Shown here: piece by piece, positions 7,466 through 59,541 of the stretch
Position numbering within the stretch: position 1 is the stretch's first letter
How the letters are laid out: each line of letters starts with the position of its first letter
Notes under the pieces: generated by a model
Told to the model about the DNA's origin: nothing
Seen by the model: the letters and a program-made list of their open reading frames with translations, nothing else
Databases searched by the model: none
Translations under genes and position numbers: made by a program
From: Saprospiraceae bacterium
GTDB taxonomy: Bacteria; Bacteroidota; Bacteroidia; Chitinophagales; Saprospiraceae
Direction of reading: 5' to 3'
Length of the DNA: 64,000 nt
Assembly: GCA_021298335.1 (NCBI GenBank)
Contig: JAJTEZ010000001.1
Span: 1 to 64,000 of the forward strand

Positions 7466-8886
7466 CACAAAAACTCGAGCGCATCATAGCATTCTTTTCC
7501 TGGCTAATCATCACACTTTTTATAGCTTACTTTAAGTTCAGCTATCACGAATTATGGAAAGATGAATGGCAGGCTTGGTTTGTGGCGAGGGATATGTCAA
7601 TTGGAAAACTACTTTCATTTCTGTATTATGAAGGCCATCCGGCGCTTTGGTATCTGTATCTGAAAATATTTACCCCTTTTTCTCAGATAGTCACAGAAAC
7701 AGCTTTGTTGTCCTTCGCACATCTCGTCGTTATTTCAAGTGCGATTTGGGTGTTATTTTTCAAAGTTCAGGGCCAGTTACTTTTAAAATGGCTATATGTT
7801 CTTTCCTATTTTTTCTTCTTCGAATATGGAATCATCAATCGGGGTTACGCTTTGGTAGTACTGCTTTCGCTGATGGTAATATGGCAACTCCAGCAGGAAA
7901 ATCGACAAACAAAAACATTGTTGTTCTCACTATTCCTTCTCTGTCAGACAGAGGTATATGGAGCTATGATGGCAATGGGATTTGGCGTTGTTCTTTGGGC
8001 GAAGGCAGGATATACGATTAAAACAGAAATTCAGAAAGCTGGATGGGCTATCCTTTCTGGCTTGTTTTGTTTTGTGCTCAGTGTGTTTCCCCGAACATCC
8101 GGACACGTCGCAAAAACGAAGGGAAAAATGCTCAGCCTTACAGATACCTGGCTGACATCCTTACAGGGCAATCTTAGCAATGCATTTTTGCCTGGAGGAA
8201 CAAAAGATACATTTGTATACGGATGGACCATACACGGATTGCTACTTTCGGCTTTTGTGATCGCCGCACTTTATTGGATTTTCAGAAAACAGAAACACTA
8301 TCTTCTTCCGCTGGCCTTTTTTACTGGCATGATGATTTTATTTAGTGCACTGGTTTTTATGGGAGGTATCAGACAGTGGGGTATGGGCTATGTGTTTTTT
8401 ATGTCTTTGTTGTTACTGCAAGGCTTACACTTCCGCACAGAAAAGATATCTCTTTGGCTAGTTCTTACTTTGTCCATATTTCAAATGGTCCATGGTTTCA
8501 GGGCTTTAAAGGAAGATTTCAAGCTCCCATTCACCAATGCATTGGAGGCAGGTCTTTTTATTCGTGAGAAGGTCCCGGAAAAAGTGCCGGTTGTCGCAAT
8601 CAATAAATTTGAAACAGCACCTGTAGGGGGATATGCCGGAAGAAAGTTCTATGAACTTCCTTCAGGAACACCTTTCAGTTATTTTCGGTGGGTAGACCGC
8701 ATCTATATTCCTACACAGGGGGAGATTCAATTATTTGCCAGATACAAAAACGTTGGGGGAGTCGTGATCATTAGCCCAACGCCACTGGATGAAGAGAGGT
8801 TTCCATCTGCTAAATTATGGAAGCAGTTTACCTCGCTGAATTATAAAAATGAAAATTATTTTCTTTACAGCTTGCCGGTAAAGTAA
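7462..8886 (+). CDS. GT-C-fold membrane glycosyltransferase-like protein
   Basis: 474 aa multi-TM protein with an N-terminal acidic loop (KDEWQAW...YYEGHPALWYLYLK). ATGA overlap with gldH. Confidence 0.6.
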   Translation: MTQKLERIIAFFSWLIITLFIAYFKFSYHELWKDEWQAWFVARDMSIGKLLSFLYYEGHPALWYLYLKIFTPFSQIVTETALLSFAHLVVISSAIWVLFFKVQGQLLLKWLYVLSYFFFFEYGIINRGYALVVLLSLMVIWQLQQENRQTKTLLFSLFLLCQTEVYGAMMAMGFGVVLWAKAGYTIKTEIQKAGWAILSGLFCFVLSVFPRTSGHVAKTKGKMLSLTDTWLTSLQGNLSNAFLPGGTKDTFVYGWTIHGLLLSAFVIAALYWIFRKQKHYLLPLAFFTGMMILFSALVFMGGIRQWGMGYVFFMSLLLLQGLHFRTEKISLWLVLTLSIFQMVHGFRALKEDFKLPFTNALEAGLFIREKVPEKVPVVAINKFETAPVGGYAGRKFYELPSGTPFSYFRWVDRIYIPTQGEIQLFARYKNVGGVVIISPTPLDEERFPSAKLWKQFTSLNYKNENYFLYSLPVK

Positions 8887-8888
8887 AT

Positions 8889-9101
8889 TTATTTCTCACA
8901 GGGTCCGGAAACAAAAGAAGTGATTCCGGCACACTTTGCTTCACTGGCATTGCCATATGTTTTTTGATTACATCCGCAAACAGGCATGTATTCCTTGGTA
9001 GAAACACATCCGTCAACAGGTTTTTCCTCGCAGGTATCTTTTGTACAGGCAAATATGAAGGTACAAGATAAAACCACTATACTCAATATTTTTCCACTCA
9101 T
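8889..9101 (-). CDS. Small Kazal-type inhibitor-domain lipoprotein
   Basis: 70 aa; lipobox TFIFAC; Kazal-like EYMPVCGCNQKTYGNASEAKCAGI. Confidence 0.8.
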   Translation of the reverse strand: MSGKILSIVVLSCTFIFACTKDTCEEKPVDGCVSTKEYMPVCGCNQKTYGNASEAKCAGITSFVSGPCEK

Positions 9102-9116
9102 CTATATAACCAGATT

Positions 9117-12100
9117 TTAATTAATACTAAAACGTAAAGTAACCCCTGTTCGTATGGTCGTCACAGGAAAAGAAAGAGAAGTCTTGGGTGTGATTTTCGA
9201 ATAATCAAAATAAAACCGGAGCGATAGGTTCTTGTTAACATCATATTCTACTGTAGGATTCATTGTCACGGTTTTGTTACCCCTGTCTGCCTGTGCATCG
9301 ATACCGGTTAGCAAGTCATAGATCTGAGAAATATCATCCCGGAGTGAGTAACTGAAATTAATTTTCAGGTCTCTTCCTTGGGCTGCCGTACCTTTATCTG
9401 TACCGAGCTTGCCCAAAAGACCGGTTAGTTTATCCTTTTCTGGACTTGTTTCATCCGCTTCCTCTTTTTTCTTGGTCTTTCTCGCCTTCTTTTTCTTTCC
9501 AAAACCTTTAAAGTTCTTGACGACATAACCCCCCCCGATCACAATTTCCTTGCTCTTGTTTTCACGCAACTGAGTAATTCCCAATTCAAGTCCCCGGGTC
9601 ATTTTATATTCCAGATCCAGTTTCATGTCACTCACTGTTTTCAGACTGAGACCAATGATAGGGACAAATTGTTCCTGGATACTGACAGCTGGAATTTCCA
9701 GTCGGGAATAATAATTGTTGTTTGGTGAGAGTTCCACAAAGGGATTTGACTCATTGTAATTGGGTGATGTCTGGAAGTTATTTACCCGAATATTTGAGGT
9801 ATAGCCATGTTTGAGGGTGATATTTGTAAAATTCTTTTTAAACCACCCAATTTTTGATAAGCCGTTATAATTTAACTGCCAGTTGGGTTTTGGTATATAG
9901 GTATTGCTTGCAAAAACCTTTTGCTGGTCCAGATCTACATCAAAGGCCGATTGACGCGTATAAGCGGCGATAAATGCTGGGATGGTGACGTTATTGTGTG
10001 ATGGTCCGTATCCTCCGGCATAAGCTGGATCTGAAGGGTGCACCCCTGGATTACTTACATTGGGCAGTCTTCGTGAAATAATTTCCCTGTTTTCTTTAAA
10101 TTGATTATAAACGCCAAAACTATTATCAAACAAGGTATTCATTGCAAAGAATGAAGCGTCAAAGGAGCCCACATCATATTTAGCAAGTTGCATGTACATC
10201 TCCTTACCGTCCATATTTTTCTTTCTGAACACCTCAGTATGGCTTTGTTGGTAGTTTTTCTTCAAAGAAACGTCTATGCTAAATTCTTTAAACGGCTCCA
10301 CAAGAAGTTTTGCATCAAATGACTGCCTGCGTGTCTGAGTGAGTGCATCATTAAAGTTGCTGCTTGGATTAAACCAGTCCTTGTTGCGCTGAAGCCAGTT
10401 ATTCTCTCCCGCGAGCACCGGTTGAATGCCGGAAACAAAGTCCCAGCCTGGCGCAGAAAAACCGTCTCCCATTCCCAACAGAGAAGCCTGAGGCATGAAG
10501 CCCGGAATCAGTGTGGTTCGGTCATCTTTATAATTTAATTTGACTGACCGGATCAGCATCAGCGGCCTGAGTACAATTCGTTCTGCCAGTGTGGGGTCTC
10601 TTGGCTTGTCTTCTTTTTCTTTTTTCGAAGCCTCTTCTTTTTTTCCTTTTTTATCATTGCCGCCGTCATCTTCTACCGCCAGTTCCGCTCCATCCTTACC
10701 TTTATTTGATTTTCTGGCAGGAGGGGCAGATCGCTGTCGACTTGAACGAGTGGCTTTTCCGGTCTCAATTGATTTTAAGTAGCCGGATTTTGCATAAAGC
10801 TTACTGAAATCGAAGGTAATGTTGAAGCCAGCATTTTGCTGGTTTCGGATGGTATTTCCAAGGGGCGTTCCCAGATCGTCAATCGTAATCAAGCTACCGC
10901 CTTCCCAACCGTATTCTGCCTTATAATCAGCGCCCGAATTAATCCAGTCAAGGATAGGAATGCTTTTGAACGGCAACTTATAATTTAATGATAGATTATG
11001 CGAGTAATATTTACTCCTTCCCAGCCTCTGCAGGTTCTCGTTTCTGTAGCGCGTAGGATATGTGGGTTCGTCGATGACATTTTGAGTGACGTTGTTGCCA
11101 TACTGGTCTACCCATTCCCGATCCTCGGCTGTATCTGCAATACCGGACTGGCGAATCTGGTCTACAATAGATCGACTGTTCACGCGGAAATTAAACCGCA
11201 GCGACCGGGTCAAATCCCAGTCTAGTACATAGTTCCTTTCCCAGTTCAGTCGTTTATCATCAAAAATAAATACAGGACTCACCGGCAATCGGAAAGTACG
11301 CGAATTATTCTGATCCACCAGCCTGCTTGTAAACGAAAAGTTGCTGGGCAACAGGCTAAAATTAAAATCAGACAATAACTTCAATGCCGACCCTTTGATA
11401 AATTTAAAAGGTTCGATATAAGTGCTTTTTCGCGAGTAAACATAATCCACGCCCAGAGATCGCTGAATGGTTTTGTCCTGTTTTACGAGAGGGTCAGATT
11501 TTGTGTTTTCGGTAAATGCGTAGGATAAACCCACATTTGAAGGAGACCAGGGCTTTCCGCTTCCCCCTGCCTGTGTCTTCACGTTTGTCACGTTGAAGGT
11601 TTTGATAGTGATTTCTTCTCTCGCTACTTCACGAATAGAATCTTTCACATTGCTTTCAGGAATCAGGCTAAGTTTGTCTTTTACTTCAAGATCCTGATCA
11701 AAAGGATCAAACTGAGGGGTCACAAAGGTCTTCTGATATTGTGCATAGACGGGAACTGTTAGTTGCAGACCTTTCGGCAGCACTTTTCCTGCATCAACGT
11801 TTGCAGCAACGTCATATTGTATGGTTTCCTCCCTGTTACGTTCGAGGAGTCGTTTATCCAACGCCCCAAAACCTATACTGCTGTAATTTCCGGATACGTT
11901 GATTTCGCCCAGGTCGGCCATTTGAATTTGCATTTTTGCCTGAGCTGCCACTCCTCCGGATTCTTCAAAACCGGTCACCCTCATTTCATTAACCCAGACC
12001 TCACCATTATACAACTTGTCTTTATCCTTATTTCGAATCGCAATTTGAAACACCTTTACAGCGCCCAGGGATGGATTCCCGACCATTCGGATGATGTCTC

Positions 12101-35052: not shown

Positions 35053-36747
35053 ATGATGAAGGGTAAAATAAGAGATATTGCAGTTTTTTTGATCGTATGT
35101 TTGATAGGCGTATCTGTTTACGGACAACAAAAATCCAGACTGGCAACAGAGTATTATAATGCCGGAGAATTTGAAAAGGCAGCGCAGCTTTTTGAATCCC
35201 TCTATAGGGAAACCCCTGCCAACAAAACCTATTTTAACTGGTATATTACCTGCCTGCTGGATATGAAAGACTATGTTACTGCAACCAGAATTGTGCAGCA
35301 GGAATTGAAAAAAAATCCGGCCGACGTCGCATTGTATGTCACAAACGGCAGCATTCTTGAACGGCAAGGCTTTTTAGAGAAGGCTAATGAAGATTATAAA
35401 AAGGCAATTCAAAATCTACCAGCCGATGTCACCAGTGTCACAAATCTGGCGGGCACATTTACAAATCTGGCCAAATATGATCTGGCGATAGAAACGTATC
35501 TGAAGGGAGAGAAACTGGCCAATACAGAAAATTTGTATGTTTATTATCTTGCTGACCTGTACCGTCGGCAAGGGGATATCAAAAACATGATAAAATACTA
35601 TCTGATTACGGCAGAACGGGAAAACAATCCCACAAACGTACAGACAAGCTTGCAGCGATTTTTAGGAGAGGCCGACTATCTTGAACTGCAAAAACAACTT
35701 TACCTCAAAGTGCAGGAAAAACCCGATGCACCAGTCTTTGGCGAATTGCTTCTTTGGACGTTTTTACAAAAGAAGGAAAATGAAAAAGCCCTGAGACAAG
35801 CCAAAGCCATGGACAGGCAATTTGATGAAAATGGTTCCAGAGTATTCACACTGGCAGAGACATTTTACAAGGAAAAAGATTACACCAACGCCATTGAAGG
35901 ATATAACTATCTCATACTACAGCATGGAAAAGGATCCGGCTTATATCTTGAAGCAAGACGGGGTCTATTGAACAGTAAAAAGAATCGGGTAACAGAGAAT
36001 TTTACCTACAGCAAGGAAGACTTATTTTCATTAAAAAATGAGTACCAGGTTTTTTTGCAGGAAATGGGCCAAAACACTCGCACGGCCTACATCATGCAGG
36101 AATATGCCGAGTTTGAAGCGTTGTATGTAAACGAACTTGACACGGCGATTCAAATTTTGGAAGAGTTAAAATCTTTTGGGGGTTTAAACCCTGAAATTCT
36201 GGCAACGGCAAAGCTTTCTTTGGGCGATTACTATCTGATGAAAGGAGACCGATGGGAAGCCAGCCTCTTATTTAGTCAGGTAGATAAAGACTTTAAGGAG
36301 GGTGACGCGATTGATATGTCAGTATTTATTCTGGACAATCTGGGCATGGATACCACAGAAGCAACGTTGCGTTTATATGCCACTGCTGATTTACTTGTGT
36401 TTCAAAACCGCTTTGAGGAAGCACTCCAAAAACTTGATTCCATCAAAATATTGTTTCCCGACCATAGTCTGGACGACGACGTCTTATATTCCAAGGCGCA
36501 GATTTATCAGAAATTGCGCAAAACGCAGGAAATGATTGCCATGTACCAGGCCATCATTGATACCTATCCGGAGGAGATCAGGGCGGATAACGCCTTGTTT
36601 GAGCTGGCTGAATTTTATGAAAAGGCTATGAAGGATACAGAAAAGGCCAAGGCCCTGTATGAAAAAATTTTTCTGGAATACACGTCCAGCACCTATGCTG
36701 TGGAAGCCAAGGCCCGGTACAGGAGGCTCAGGGGAGATTCTTTGTAG
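35053..36747 (+). CDS. Tetratricopeptide repeat protein with signal peptide
   Basis: 564 aa; N-terminal signal, multiple TPR-like helices (NAGEFEKAAQLFESLYRETPANK; EKAKALYEKIFLEYTSSTYAVEAKARYRRLRG). Confidence 0.85.
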   Translation: MMKGKIRDIAVFLIVCLIGVSVYGQQKSRLATEYYNAGEFEKAAQLFESLYRETPANKTYFNWYITCLLDMKDYVTATRIVQQELKKNPADVALYVTNGSILERQGFLEKANEDYKKAIQNLPADVTSVTNLAGTFTNLAKYDLAIETYLKGEKLANTENLYVYYLADLYRRQGDIKNMIKYYLITAERENNPTNVQTSLQRFLGEADYLELQKQLYLKVQEKPDAPVFGELLLWTFLQKKENEKALRQAKAMDRQFDENGSRVFTLAETFYKEKDYTNAIEGYNYLILQHGKGSGLYLEARRGLLNSKKNRVTENFTYSKEDLFSLKNEYQVFLQEMGQNTRTAYIMQEYAEFEALYVNELDTAIQILEELKSFGGLNPEILATAKLSLGDYYLMKGDRWEASLLFSQVDKDFKEGDAIDMSVFILDNLGMDTTEATLRLYATADLLVFQNRFEEALQKLDSIKILFPDHSLDDDVLYSKAQIYQKLRKTQEMIAMYQAIIDTYPEEIRADNALFELAEFYEKAMKDTEKAKALYEKIFLEYTSSTYAVEAKARYRRLRGDSL

Positions 36748-49714: not shown

Positions 49715-51470
49715 TTATTTATCATTAAGTATTGGGGAAGGAAGGACGGCCAGGTCAGGAGTAGATGTGTCAAACAGGCCTTTAAACATTCTTTGTTCCA
49801 GGTCTTTTCTTTCAGGTCTGATTTTTCCCGTTAGAAACTTTTCTATCAGAAGGCTTGATATGGGTGCTGCCCAATCGCCTCCCCATCCGGCATTTTCCAC
49901 AAAAACAGCGACTGCAATTTTAGGACTATGTTTTGGAGCAAAGCCAAAAAAGACAGAGTGGTCCTTTCCGTGGGGGTTTTGGGAGGTCCCTGTTTTCCCG
50001 CAGATGTCCAAACCGGGAACATAGGCTACGCGAGCGGTGCCTGAAGTAACCACTGCTTCCAGTCCGTCAATGACAGGTTCAAAATGTTTTTTGTGAATTC
50101 TTACTTTGTGCTGTGTCGTCAATTCTTGAGGAATAGGTCGACCGGTTCTGAATTTCTTCAGGAAATGGGGGATATAAAATACACCTCTGTTTGCAAGAAT
50201 TGATGCCAGATTTGCCATTTGGATTGTGGTGAGCTGCACTTCTCCCTGACCTATGCCCATAGAAAGCACCCACATCGACCTCCATCCATTGGCTTCTTTT
50301 CTGTATACCCGGTCGTAAAACTTAGAATCTGGAATAAAGCCCCGTCCTTCATAACTATAATCCAGACCAAGTTTTCTGCCAAGTCCAAAATCTTTCAAAT
50401 AGGAAACAAGCGTGTCAAGACCAATACCAGGCCTCCTATATCCATACATATCCAGGAAGTCTTTTGTGATCTGAAGATAATAAGTGTTACAGGAATATTG
50501 AATCGCAGAGGCAACGCCTCTGAGTGGTGCGTGGCCGTGGCATTTTTGAATTTTAGAAGGGGTCAGCCGGAATCCCCCAAAGCAGGGAATAGTTCGTTCG
50601 GCCGTAGTTATTCCCTTTTGCCAGTAGGTTGGGATTGTAAAATGGAGCACTCACCAAAGCTAGAATTTCACCGGTGGAAGGCTCAATGGCGACTAGAGCC
50701 CCTCGTTTATTCATCATCAGACTATCTGCATATTGTTGCAGAGCCAGATCAATACTTATGATAATGTCTTCCCCGGGTACTGCAGAGCTATCAAGTTTAC
50801 CATTGTCATATGCTCCAACTTCACGCCCCAAATTATCCTTTAGAATATAATTTACACCCTTTTTACCTGCCAGCTCCCGTTCGTATGCCAGCTCCAGTCC
50901 GGTTTTTCCGATGTAATCACCAGAGATATATGCTCCTTCGGATTGTTCAATGATTTTCTTATCAACTTCACCGAGGTAGCCCAAAATATGACAAGCTGTC
51001 TGGTGGGGATAACCCCGGATACTTCTTTCCATTGCCGTAAACCCAGGAAATTTATGAATATGTTCCTGGAAAATAGCAAATTGCTTTGGGCTGATTTTTG
51101 GAAGAAAGACAAATGGGATGGATTTGTGAAATTGAGGGCTGGACCAGTCTTTATTCAGATTTTCTATAAACGTCTGTTTGTCAATATCAAGCAAATTACA
51201 GAACAACGCCGTGTCCATATCGGGTTTAATTTTTCTGTACGTTGCATAAAGCGAATAAATTGGCTTATTGTATACCAAAGTTTTATTGTTTCGATCAAAA
51301 ATAACGCCTCTGGAAGGATAAATCACTCTCTTTTCAAGTGTGGTTCGGCGCGCTTGTTCCTTATATTTGGATGAAATCAGCTGTAAGTATGCCACGCGAA
51401 AAACCAGTATTGCTGCAATCAAAGCAATGCTGTACAGAATGACAAATTTGCGTTCTTCCAATTGTCTCAT
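49715..51470 (-). pseudogene. mrdA: Penicillin-binding protein 2 (MrdA-like), split by an internal deletion/frameshift
   Basis: ORF 51470-50553 has the TM segment and PBP dimerisation domain through ALVSAPFYNPNLLAKGNNYGRTNYSLL. The other frame to 49715 has GGFRLTPSKIQKCHGHAPL...SCN...CGKTGTS. The expected PLFNRA..YPPGSxFK segment is in neither frame. Confidence 0.85.
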
Positions 51471-51477
51471 TCAGGAA

Positions 51478-51999
51478 TTAATGTTTGAAGCGAAAGAGAA
51501 ACTGAGAAATAAAAATAGCTGCAAATGATGCAAAAAAAGTAAACAGGCTGTTGATAAAGATGGAAAAAAAATACACCAGAGAAAATGCTTCGAGGCTAAA
51601 GTATGTAAAGACATGGACTAAAAGCAGAATGCTCATAAATGAAACATACCACCCCAGTCCAAGGCGGTGAATGGTTGGACTGTCGTCAAGGCTGTAGCCA
51701 TGAAAGGGCTCAAGAAAGGCAATGACCAGGATTCTTACATAGGCCGTAAAGACACAGGTAGCTGCATGTATTCCGGGTGAATTGTAAAAAAAATCAAGAC
51801 ACAAACCAAAAAGAAAAGCGATCAGCAAAACCAAAGATCTGGAGGTTTTGATGGGAAGCATCAGAAACGCCATAGGGTAATACAGAATATGAACAAAGGC
51901 GATTCCTTCCAGAGAGTATGTTGCCTGCCTGAATATTAAGACCTGAGCCAAAAAAACCAGGACCAGGCGTAAACCATGGATATATAGTACATTATTCAT
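51478..51999 (-). CDS. mreD: Rod shape-determining protein MreD
   Basis: Hydrophobic multi-TM protein in mreBCD order. Start refined to MNNVLYIHGLRLVLVFLAQ. Confidence 0.8.
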   Translation of the reverse strand: MNNVLYIHGLRLVLVFLAQVLIFRQATYSLEGIAFVHILYYPMAFLMLPIKTSRSLVLLIAFLFGLCLDFFYNSPGIHAATCVFTAYVRILVIAFLEPFHGYSLDDSPTIHRLGLGWYVSFMSILLLVHVFTYFSLEAFSLVYFFSIFINSLFTFFASFAAIFISQFLFRFKH

Positions 52000-52816
52000 T
52001 GGCCACCTCGTTTTCAAGTTGCAATCTTTCTCCTGCAAAACGATTTGACACCACATAGGCATAATTTGTGCCGGCCATGTCGTTGAATAGTTTTACAGTA
52101 ATGTAGTGGCTGTTGCTACCTGCCTGATTTTCAATTTTTTCGATAGTTCCCACAAGTATGCCTTTTGGAAAAATAGTCGAATACCCACTGGTGATAACTG
52201 TGTCACCTTTCATCACTGTTTCGTGCTTTGGAATGGAGGTCAACGTCATACGTTGAGGGTCCGGTGATGTCCAGATCAGTGATCCATGACCAGAACGGCC
52301 TTTGATGCTGCAACTAATTCTTGTCTGTGAATGCAAAATGGAAATCACGTGTGAAAAATTTTCAGAAACATTTCTTACGATACCAATGATGCCCTTATGG
52401 GAAGCAATCACACCCATGTCAGGACGAATTCCTTCGCGTGACCCTTTGCACAAAGTCAGGTGGTTATTGTTCAGGTGAATTGAGCTGTTGCAAACGTAAG
52501 CCGGAATAATGCTAAAACCAGTATATAAAGAATCGTACTCAGGAATTTTATCTGAGGAGTACTCTATGGTGATCAGGTTTTCAATCAAAGTCGCATTTTC
52601 TCGCAGCAAGCTGTCATTTTGTTCTTGCAAGCCAAGATATTGTTTCATTTTATCCCCCTGTTCAGTAATTCTTCCTGCATAAAAATTAGAGGAGTTGATG
52701 AAAATGTCTCTTTTATCTTGATTATACTTGACGATCAGGAAAAAACACAAAATCTCCAGAGCCACAAATAAAATGTGACTACCATACCGAAAAAAAATCA
52801 GTGCAATATTGTGCAT
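51992..52816 (-). CDS. mreC: Rod shape-determining protein MreC
   Basis: TM + coiled coil; GIIGIVRNVSENFSHVISILHSQTRISCSIKGRSGHGSL. Confidence 0.93.
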   Translation of the reverse strand: MHNIALIFFRYGSHILFVALEILCFFLIVKYNQDKRDIFINSSNFYAGRITEQGDKMKQYLGLQEQNDSLLRENATLIENLITIEYSSDKIPEYDSLYTGFSIIPAYVCNSSIHLNNNHLTLCKGSREGIRPDMGVIASHKGIIGIVRNVSENFSHVISILHSQTRISCSIKGRSGHGSLIWTSPDPQRMTLTSIPKHETVMKGDTVITSGYSTIFPKGILVGTIEKIENQAGSNSHYITVKLFNDMAGTNYAYVVSNRFAGERLQLENEVANE

Positions 52817-52826
52817 TTTTCAAAAA

Positions 52827-53858
52827 TCAGATACTTTTTCTATCCATCAGGAAAGAATATCTTTCTGTGTTTTTCAGCGCAATGCCTGTTCCCCGGACGA
52901 CTGCTTTCAAAGGATCCTCGGCTACGTGAATTTTTAGTTTTGTTTTGGAAGACATGCGCTTGTCTAGTCCTCTCAACAGTGCACCGCCTCCAGTAAGGTA
53001 AATTCCCTTGCTGAAAATATCAGAAGATAACTCTGGCGGTGTGTCTTCCAGTGCCTTCAATACGGCTTCTTCAATTTTAGCGATGGACTTGTCAAGTGCT
53101 TCAGAAACCTCAATGTGGGTTGTAAAAATTTGTTTGGGTATGCCAGTCAGAAGATCACGTCCATTTACAGCGTATCTTGGCGGTGGATCCTGTAAATCCT
53201 GAATGGCTGAGCCCACGTTGATCTTGATCTGTTCTGCTGTGCGTTCTCCGATGAGCAGGTTGTGCTTCCGCTTCATATAATCAATAATATCGTTGGTGAA
53301 TTCATCACCGGCGATACGGATGGACTGATCAGTAACGATACCCGAAAGGGCAATGACTGCAATTTCGGTGGTTCCTCCGCCAATATCAATGACCATGTTT
53401 CCTACAGGCTCTTCAACGTCAAGCCCGATACCTAAGGCAGCAGCCATTGGCTCGTGAATCAAGTACGTTTCTTTAGAGTCTACGTGGTCAGCGGAGTCAA
53501 ATACCGCTCTTTTTTCAACTTCAGTTATTCCTGAAGGAATACAAATAACCATTTTTAAATGGGTAAAGAATCGCCTTTTCTCACCTATCATATTGATCAG
53601 GCCCTGAATTAATGCTTCAGCAGCCTGAAAATCAGCAATGACTCCATCCTTTAAGGGGCGAATCGTTTTAATATTGTCATGCGTTTTTTCATGCATCATC
53701 ATGGCTCTGTTGCCGACTGCAATCACTTCCCCTGTATTTCTGTTGATGGCAACAATCGATGGTTCGTCTACAACGACCTTATCATTTTGTATAATGAGCG
53801 TATTAGCTGTGCCTAGATCGACAGCCAGTTCCTGTGTGAAAAAATTAAAGAATCTCAT
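52827..53858 (-). CDS. mreB: Rod shape-determining protein MreB
   Basis: AVDLGTANTLI, MVIDIGGGTTEIAVIALSGIV, YLTGGGALLRGLDK. Confidence 0.97.
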   Translation of the reverse strand: MRFFNFFTQELAVDLGTANTLIIQNDKVVVDEPSIVAINRNTGEVIAVGNRAMMMHEKTHDNIKTIRPLKDGVIADFQAAEALIQGLINMIGEKRRFFTHLKMVICIPSGITEVEKRAVFDSADHVDSKETYLIHEPMAAALGIGLDVEEPVGNMVIDIGGGTTEIAVIALSGIVTDQSIRIAGDEFTNDIIDYMKRKHNLLIGERTAEQIKINVGSAIQDLQDPPPRYAVNGRDLLTGIPKQIFTTHIEVSEALDKSIAKIEEAVLKALEDTPPELSSDIFSKGIYLTGGGALLRGLDKRMSSKTKLKIHVAEDPLKAVVRGTGIALKNTERYSFLMDRKSI

Positions 53859-57317: not shown

Positions 57318-59541
57318 ATGAGACAAAATAAATTTGATGCAATATATAAGCCACTCTTTGCTGTTTTTATTTTTTTTCATTTTGGAAATTCTCAATCAGG
57401 GATATTACCAGGAACCTGGAAATCACACCTTTCTTACAAGGAAGGAAGATTGGTTACACAAAGTGATGATAAAGTTATCTATGCAGCCCAAAGAGGGATA
57501 TTTACTATTGACAAGGCTGATCTTTCTGTTGAATTTTTATCAAAAGAAAACAATCTTTCAGAAGTGGATGTCTCAGGCTTGTTTTATGACGATAGGAACC
57601 AGCAATTGTTTGTGGTTTACAGTAGCAATTTTATCGATATCCTTTCAGGGTCTACAATTTTCACAGTATCGGACATTGCTAATAATTCTACCATTATAGG
57701 AAGCAAAACAATCAACGACATCACATTTGCAAGTGCAGAAAACGCCTATATAGCCACGGACTTTGGAATCCTGGGCTTTAGTCCGAAACAGAAAGAATTT
57801 CAATTTACTACATTCACACAACAAAAAGTATATTCCGTGTGCGAAAACAGAAACAGCATCTATGCTGCCACTGAGAACGGATTGTATTTTATTTCAAAAT
57901 CTGATTCAAGGATTTCGGATTTTAATGCCTGGCAAAAAATACTTCCACAATCTGGCCTGCCATCAGCAGATCAGATCAAAAAGGTCAGAACAAAAGCTTC
58001 GTTACTTGTAGTTTGGCAGGACAATGCAATATATATCCAAAATAATCAGGACCAGTTTTCTGAAATACTGGCTCCCAATTGGGGCAACGCAGCGATTAAC
58101 TTTTTCTCTACAGAAGGTTCTTATATTATGGCCGGCGTTGAACAAAATAACCAGACCCAGGTGTTTTTCCTTGAAACCTCAGGAAATATAGCGGGTATTC
58201 GACCGGAGGGTTGTCTGAATAAAACAAGAAATGCGATTGAAGACGAGAAAGGTAGGGTATGGTATGCAGATGAATGGGAACCCGTCAGGTACACCGAAGG
58301 CTTGGCTAATGGTGAGTGCCGTCAGTTGAGTTTTTCTACTCCTTATACCAATGACGCAAGCAACATCAGGTTTAAAGGAGAAAAAGCGTATGTTGCTTCG
58401 GGTGGAGTTACGGAGGATTACCAGTATAAATTTACCAGATATGGATTTTATACTTATGAGCAGGGAGACTGGATCAATTTTACTCAGGAAAAAATACCTG
58501 AAATCCTGGAATATGACTTTTTAAATTTGTTTTGTCTTGCGCCAGATCCGTTTTCTTCAAATATTTATTTGGGAAGCTATTACAATGGCCTTCTTTCGTT
58601 TGATGAAAAAACAGGAAAAGCGGAGCATTGGAATAAGGACAACAGCATATTACAGGGAGTCATCGGTGATCCGCAAAGAACCCGAGTTGCAGGCTTGGCT
58701 TTTGATAAAAAAGGCAATCTTTGGATATCCAATTACGGATCTACCTCACCGCTTGTAGTCAAAACAAAAGAGGGATCATGGCACAAATTCAGTTTGCCGG
58801 GAAGCAGTCAGCTTGCGGAGATTGCCATCGACCAGTCAGGCAATAAATGGATCGTTGTGCCGGGAGTTGGGAATGGAATTCTTGTATACAACGAAGGAGA
58901 AAACATTTCAGATACCGGTGATGATACTTTCAGGTTCATCAATCGCAACAATAGTATACTCACTGGAAATAAAGTGAATTCGGTCCTTGTGGATCTGGAT
59001 GGCGCTGTTTGGGTGGGTACGGATCAAGGTCCTGTCATTTTTGACTGTGGCAATCCTTTTCAGGAGTCAGTCTGTCGGGGTAGCACAAGACCAGTTGTCG
59101 TAGACGGTATTCCCTCTCTCCTTTTGAGGGATGAAGACATACTTTGTATGGAAGTGGATGGGGCAAATAGAAAATGGTTTGGAACGAGAAACGGAATTTT
59201 TGTACAATCGACCGATGGAACAACTCAAATTGACCAGTTTACTACAGGCAATTCCCCACTGCTCAGCAATAGGGTGGTAGATCTGGCGTATAATTCGCAG
59301 ACCTGAATACGAAGGACTGATTTATGTCAAAGGTCTGGTCAGGGATGCAAATGTGAAAATTACAGACGTCCAGGGAAGGCTGGTCTATGAAACCAGAGCA
59401 TTGGGTGGACAGGCAGTCTGGGATGGAAGGGATTATCATGGCTTAAAGGCATCCCCTGGGGTTTATCTGGTCTTTAGCGCCAACGAAAACACTTCCGGTG
59501 AAAATGACTCCTATGTCACAAAAATATTGATCATTGATTGA
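57318..59541 (+). pseudogene. porZ: T9SS component PorZ-like beta-propeller protein, C-terminal domain out of frame
   Basis: 662-aa ORF with two-component-regulator-type propeller repeats ends at 59306 (RVVDLAYNSQT*). The next frame reads RPEYEGLIYVKGLVRDANVKITDVQGRLVYETRALGGQAVWDGRDYHG...GVYLVF...YVTKILIID*, a PorZ/T9SS-type C-terminal domain. Confidence 0.8.

Follow-up and report, generated by a model that had tools for sequence, protein, structure and literature searches.

A split mrdA gene in a Saprospiraceae-family draft genome is very probably an assembly artefact

Introduction

PBP2 (MrdA) is a class B penicillin-binding protein, described as essential in E. coli in the part consulted of one source (PMC7793260). 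Another source reports that RodA is stimulated by the conformation of PBP2 in the same organism (PMC6207328). Genes that look broken in draft genomes have been described from a technical side as well. According to Cooley and Wright, assembly errors account for many of the pseudogenes seen in bacterial genomes (PMC11017572). Chen et al., in the sections drawn on here, described Ns inserted despite overlap in IDBA-UD and CLC assemblies, and noted that databases come to contain incorrect or incomplete protein-coding genes when errors are left uncurated (PMC7111523).

Here we analysed a broken mrdA gene in a window of 64,000 nt, i.e., the whole stretch of DNA under study, corresponding to bases 1-64000 of contig C182 (69,407 nt). 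The source is a Saprospiraceae-family draft genome of 2.97 Mb (218 contigs, 83.7% complete), and short contigs make up most of the remaining assembly. Of the named relatives, the closest were a genome labelled Aureispira and one of a Saprospiraceae bacterium. A search for a same-species genome among genome contigs found none (best match 73%), and a plasmid search gave no match.

Results

The mrdA reading frame is broken and lacks the SxxK segment

On the minus strand, the gene follows mreB, mreC and an mreD-like gene, and glgB comes next. The same order was found in same-genus genomes, and the conserved neighbourhood beside mreBCD is retained around the broken gene. The features of the locus are as follows:

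52827-53858, minus strand: mreB, intact; PF06723, 414.9 bits
51992-52816, minus strand: mreC, intact, 274 aa as in the relatives; PF04085
51478-52062, minus strand: mreD-like gene, open, named by its position and its likeness to the relatives' gene there
50621-51470, minus strand: upstream part of mrdA in the correct frame, with the membrane anchor, PBP_dimer and the start of the transpeptidase; ends ...SAPFYNPNLL
50620/50621, minus strand: mrdA junction, 137 nt missing and a frame change, by alignment with same-genus genes
49715-50620, minus strand: downstream part of mrdA in the correct frame, starting QKGITTAERTIPCFGGF; PF00905, TIGR03423
50553-50620, minus strand: tail of the upstream ORF, read in the wrong frame up to the stop codon, KGNNYGRTNYSLLWGIPADPF, outside PBP2

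Neither Pfam nor NCBIfam gave a match for the mreD-like gene at 51478-52062. Most other genes tested in the window were open, as was rodA in the draft genome. A peptidase S46 suspected of being truncated at the window end proved to be intact on the full contig.

The mrdA gene is split over two minus-strand ORFs, 50553-51470 (305 aa) and 49715-50650 (311 aa), and the preliminary description was correct in reporting such a break. The profiles PF03717, PF00905 and TIGR03423 were divided between the two ORFs. The PBP_dimer domain (PF03717) was found in the upstream ORF with 129.6 bits (cut-off 24.4). The transpeptidase domain (PF00905) scored 128.4 bits in the downstream ORF and was not full-length, covering only profile positions 55-295 of 299. 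The TIGR03423 (pbp2_mrdA) model was matched at positions 2-288 by the upstream and 321-591 by the downstream ORF, and the scores of the two pieces (220.7 and 180.7 bits) did not exceed 455 bits. The SCN (SxN) and KTGTS (KTG) motifs, earlier said to be kept by the other frame, are indeed present in the downstream ORF. The SxxK segment, carried by intact same-genus mrdA genes as PPGSIxKP, was absent from every frame at this locus, as had been claimed, and also from the rest of the genome. Between PNLL and QKG, five intact same-genus genes carry 46 residues, PPGSIxKP included. The net loss relative to same-genus genes is 137 nt, close to the former estimate of 40-45 residues, and the 46 residues gone include the catalytic SxxK.

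The position of the junction had to be revised. In the same-genus alignment, homology follows the upstream frame as far as NPNLL and continues in the downstream frame at QKGITTAERTIPCFGGF, and bases 50553-50620 read QKGITTAERTIPCFGGFRL in that other frame. The switch at 50620/50621 therefore lies approximately 45 nt upstream of the NYSLL/CFGG site (50553-50600) at which it had been placed. The codons preceding CFGG, QKGITTAERTIP, already belong to the downstream frame and are aligned to QKGVTWVQRPMN in the relatives, so that NYSLLWGIPADPF is wrong-frame readthrough. Since the NYSLL/CFGG site lies inside downstream-frame sequence, the 6-nt direct repeat proposed as the site of a deletion plays no part; the codon alignment sets the junction elsewhere.

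The junction sequence is clean, with no N, and the search for a second intact PBP2/mrdA in the genome, which had been advised, returned none. Both results would also suit a real, recent deletion of the PBP2 active site in this strain, with the elongation transpeptidase lost and the two halves not yet decayed.

Both halves of mrdA are normally conserved

Compared with the four closest same-genus PBP2 proteins, the upstream part showed 72-74% identity, and identities of the two halves to the four closest same-genus genes were 69-74% each. Residues invariant in seven relatives were kept almost completely (117 of 118 in one half and 107 of 109 in the other). Relative-rate tests were mostly flat; 2 of 24 exceeded a chi-square of 5, both against G001 and in the N half. 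The normal conservation of the halves therefore indicates that selection acted until very recently, or still acts. It is also compatible with a deletion in the strain, provided that the event was very recent.

The presence of a PBP_dimer domain and an open rodA raised the question of two working polypeptides, in which the N-terminal piece (anchor and pedestal) would activate RodA and another PBP would supply the transpeptidase; the reported stimulation of RodA by the E. coli PBP2 conformation fits this arrangement. However, the downstream ORF has neither the SxxK serine nor a conserved start, and soluble enzymes, e.g., MurC, share the loss pattern (see below), where such a role would make no sense. 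We regard this explanation as barely tenable.

mrdA in related genomes

A match to the pbp2_mrdA model was found in all 399 genomes of the order, and 327 of these exceeded the curated cut-off; a weaker match may come from another class B PBP. Intact mrdA occupies the same place in same-genus genomes, which had been named beforehand as the sign of a sequence error; the correspondence holds at the genus level. The low scorers examined were explained by contig ends, Ns and a one-base loss. In G004, mrdA is split by a contig end inside the segment lost here, in G411 a contig end lies nearby, and the G021 gene contains an N-run. These are gaps rather than losses, and no relative was found with a parallel loss. 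Breaks of mrdA in draft genomes are therefore technical in several other cases. In G005 (L011), which belongs to the same genus, mrdA is split by one base lost in an A run, and this genome has many frameshifts of approximately 1 nt elsewhere.

Losses of similar size affect unrelated genes of the same assembly

Same-genus proteins were compared with 528 kb of the genome (total 2.97 Mb), and coding sequence aligned over 129 kb. In this aligned part, frame-breaking losses of 113-137 nt were detected in four genes, namely mrdA, porZ, a cytochrome/PA14 gene and murC; an ftsW-murG fusion adds to the unrelated genes in which such an event recurs. The affected features other than mrdA, together with an in-frame case, were:

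57318-59541, plus strand: porZ-like gene, frame change at approximately 59302/59303, 37 residues (net 113 nt) gone; two same-genus homologues agree
C182, approximately 66395 (L112, approximately 6395), just beyond the window: cytochrome/PA14 gene, broken, with a net 122 nt missing by comparison with its G003 homologue
contig C181 (L114), approximately 10700: murC, broken by a 124-nt loss
contig C181 (L114), 7985-10180: ftsW-murG, ORFs fused, 103 nt missing between them, removing the N-terminal MurG GGTGGH region
35053-36747, plus strand: TPR-repeat gene, 40 residues missing in frame after approximately 36303 relative to the G003 homologue

The in-frame loss in the TPR-repeat gene could possibly reflect the same type of error. 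The in-frame losses seen measured 120, 93, 171 and 261 nt, and could either be natural or share that origin. With the in-frame cases counted, the lengths range from 93 to 261 nt, and because they vary, no single k-mer or overlap rule fits. On C182 the losses are located at 36.3, 50.6, 59.3 and 66.4 kb, a spacing roughly like the lengths of the short contigs of the assembly. The idea that the joins fell in unusually conserved DNA failed for mrdA, as the lost segment is not unusually conserved at the DNA level.

The same screen applied to the independent assemblies of three relatives (286 kb of G003, G005 and G009) found no gene-breaking loss of at least 100 nt, and in G005 only frameshifts of approximately 1 nt. 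The one-sided binomial P for this genome against the relatives was 0.009 with four events and 0.003 with five, values that are small rather than extreme, that treat the events as independent and that were calculated after the pattern had become apparent. Intact copies of murC, murG and mrdA were all absent from the assembly, the other murC and murG matches being partial, weak or from related families, and the rest of the checked wall pathway was open.

These observations bear on three further readings of the mrdA break. A real deletion in the strain would leave four other breaks unexplained, including those in murC and murG, neither of which is intact elsewhere in the assembly, and an essential role has been described for PBP2 in E. 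coli; we consider it highly improbable. Widespread gene decay through numerous deletions of approximately 100-140 nt, e.g., in a wall-poor or host-dependent lineage, would account for such losses in several genes, three of peptidoglycan synthesis among them. Decay of this kind should nevertheless also speed up evolution and leave stop codons and small indels, whereas the screen gave no small frameshifts in this genome, nearly every invariant residue is kept in the mrdA halves and most other tested genes in the window are open, which leaves this reading next to no probability. Strain bubbles can occur in draft genomes from mixed populations, and a minority-strain variant, deleted in part of the population, might have been chosen by the assembler at such a bubble. 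This would need independent strain deletions of similar size in at least five genes and is scarcely conceivable.

An N-run of 27 nt was observed on contig C120 (L210) at 2965-2991, with identical 13 nt (AAGATCTGCCCTG) on each side. The 13-nt overlap around this N-run is a sign of imperfect scaffolding in the assembly.

Discussion

The comparison with same-genus genes indicates that the mrdA break is very probably an artefact of assembly and not biology. An assembly error is the most likely cause because murC, murG and other genes have lost pieces of similar size, and the three relatives screened have lost none. Of the two readings left side by side in the preliminary description, a real loss of activity and a sequence or assembly error, the recurrence in unrelated genes favours the second and speaks against the first. 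Two neighbouring stretches of mrdA would have been joined directly, leaving out the intervening approximately 137 nt with the SxxK segment, and such joins would come from gap closing or from the scaffolding of contigs. In the cell itself, mrdA is almost certainly intact. It is not credible that a cell would lack MurC, MurG and PBP2 and yet keep the remaining pathway, whereas sequence missing from the assembly is a credible cause.

If the loss were real, wall elongation would proceed without a PBP2 active site. That a Saprospiraceae-family bacterium has truly lost this active site while keeping MreBCD and RodA, and elongates without a transpeptidase of its own, is very unlikely. The mrdA break is biologically of low interest, and the initial observation was right in substance and wrong in the junction. 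Its value lies in a caution: in this draft genome several essential wall genes seem broken, and claims of gene loss drawn from it need checking against the reads. Comparison with same-genus proteins for losses of approximately 100 nt would quickly detect such assemblies.

The gene resembles PBP2/MrdA (TIGR03423, PF03717 and PF00905) in the mreB-mreC-mreD-mrdA order, the PBP_dimer domain and the SxN and KTG motifs. It differs from the class B penicillin-binding protein in that 46 residues with SxxK are gone and the frame is broken in the assembly. In line with the spurious pseudogenes of PMC11017572, intact genes would here look broken by assembly, the sign being a raised number of broken genes; that work treats frameshifts and internal stops generally, and losses of approximately 100 nt are not its specific subject. 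The case is also like the join errors of metagenome-assembled genomes in the consulted part of PMC7111523, with wrong or incomplete coding at joins and, on C120, an N-run between overlapping flanks. That part covers unsupported consensus and Ns inserted despite overlap, and the gap-free join with lost sequence that we infer here would belong to the same class of error.
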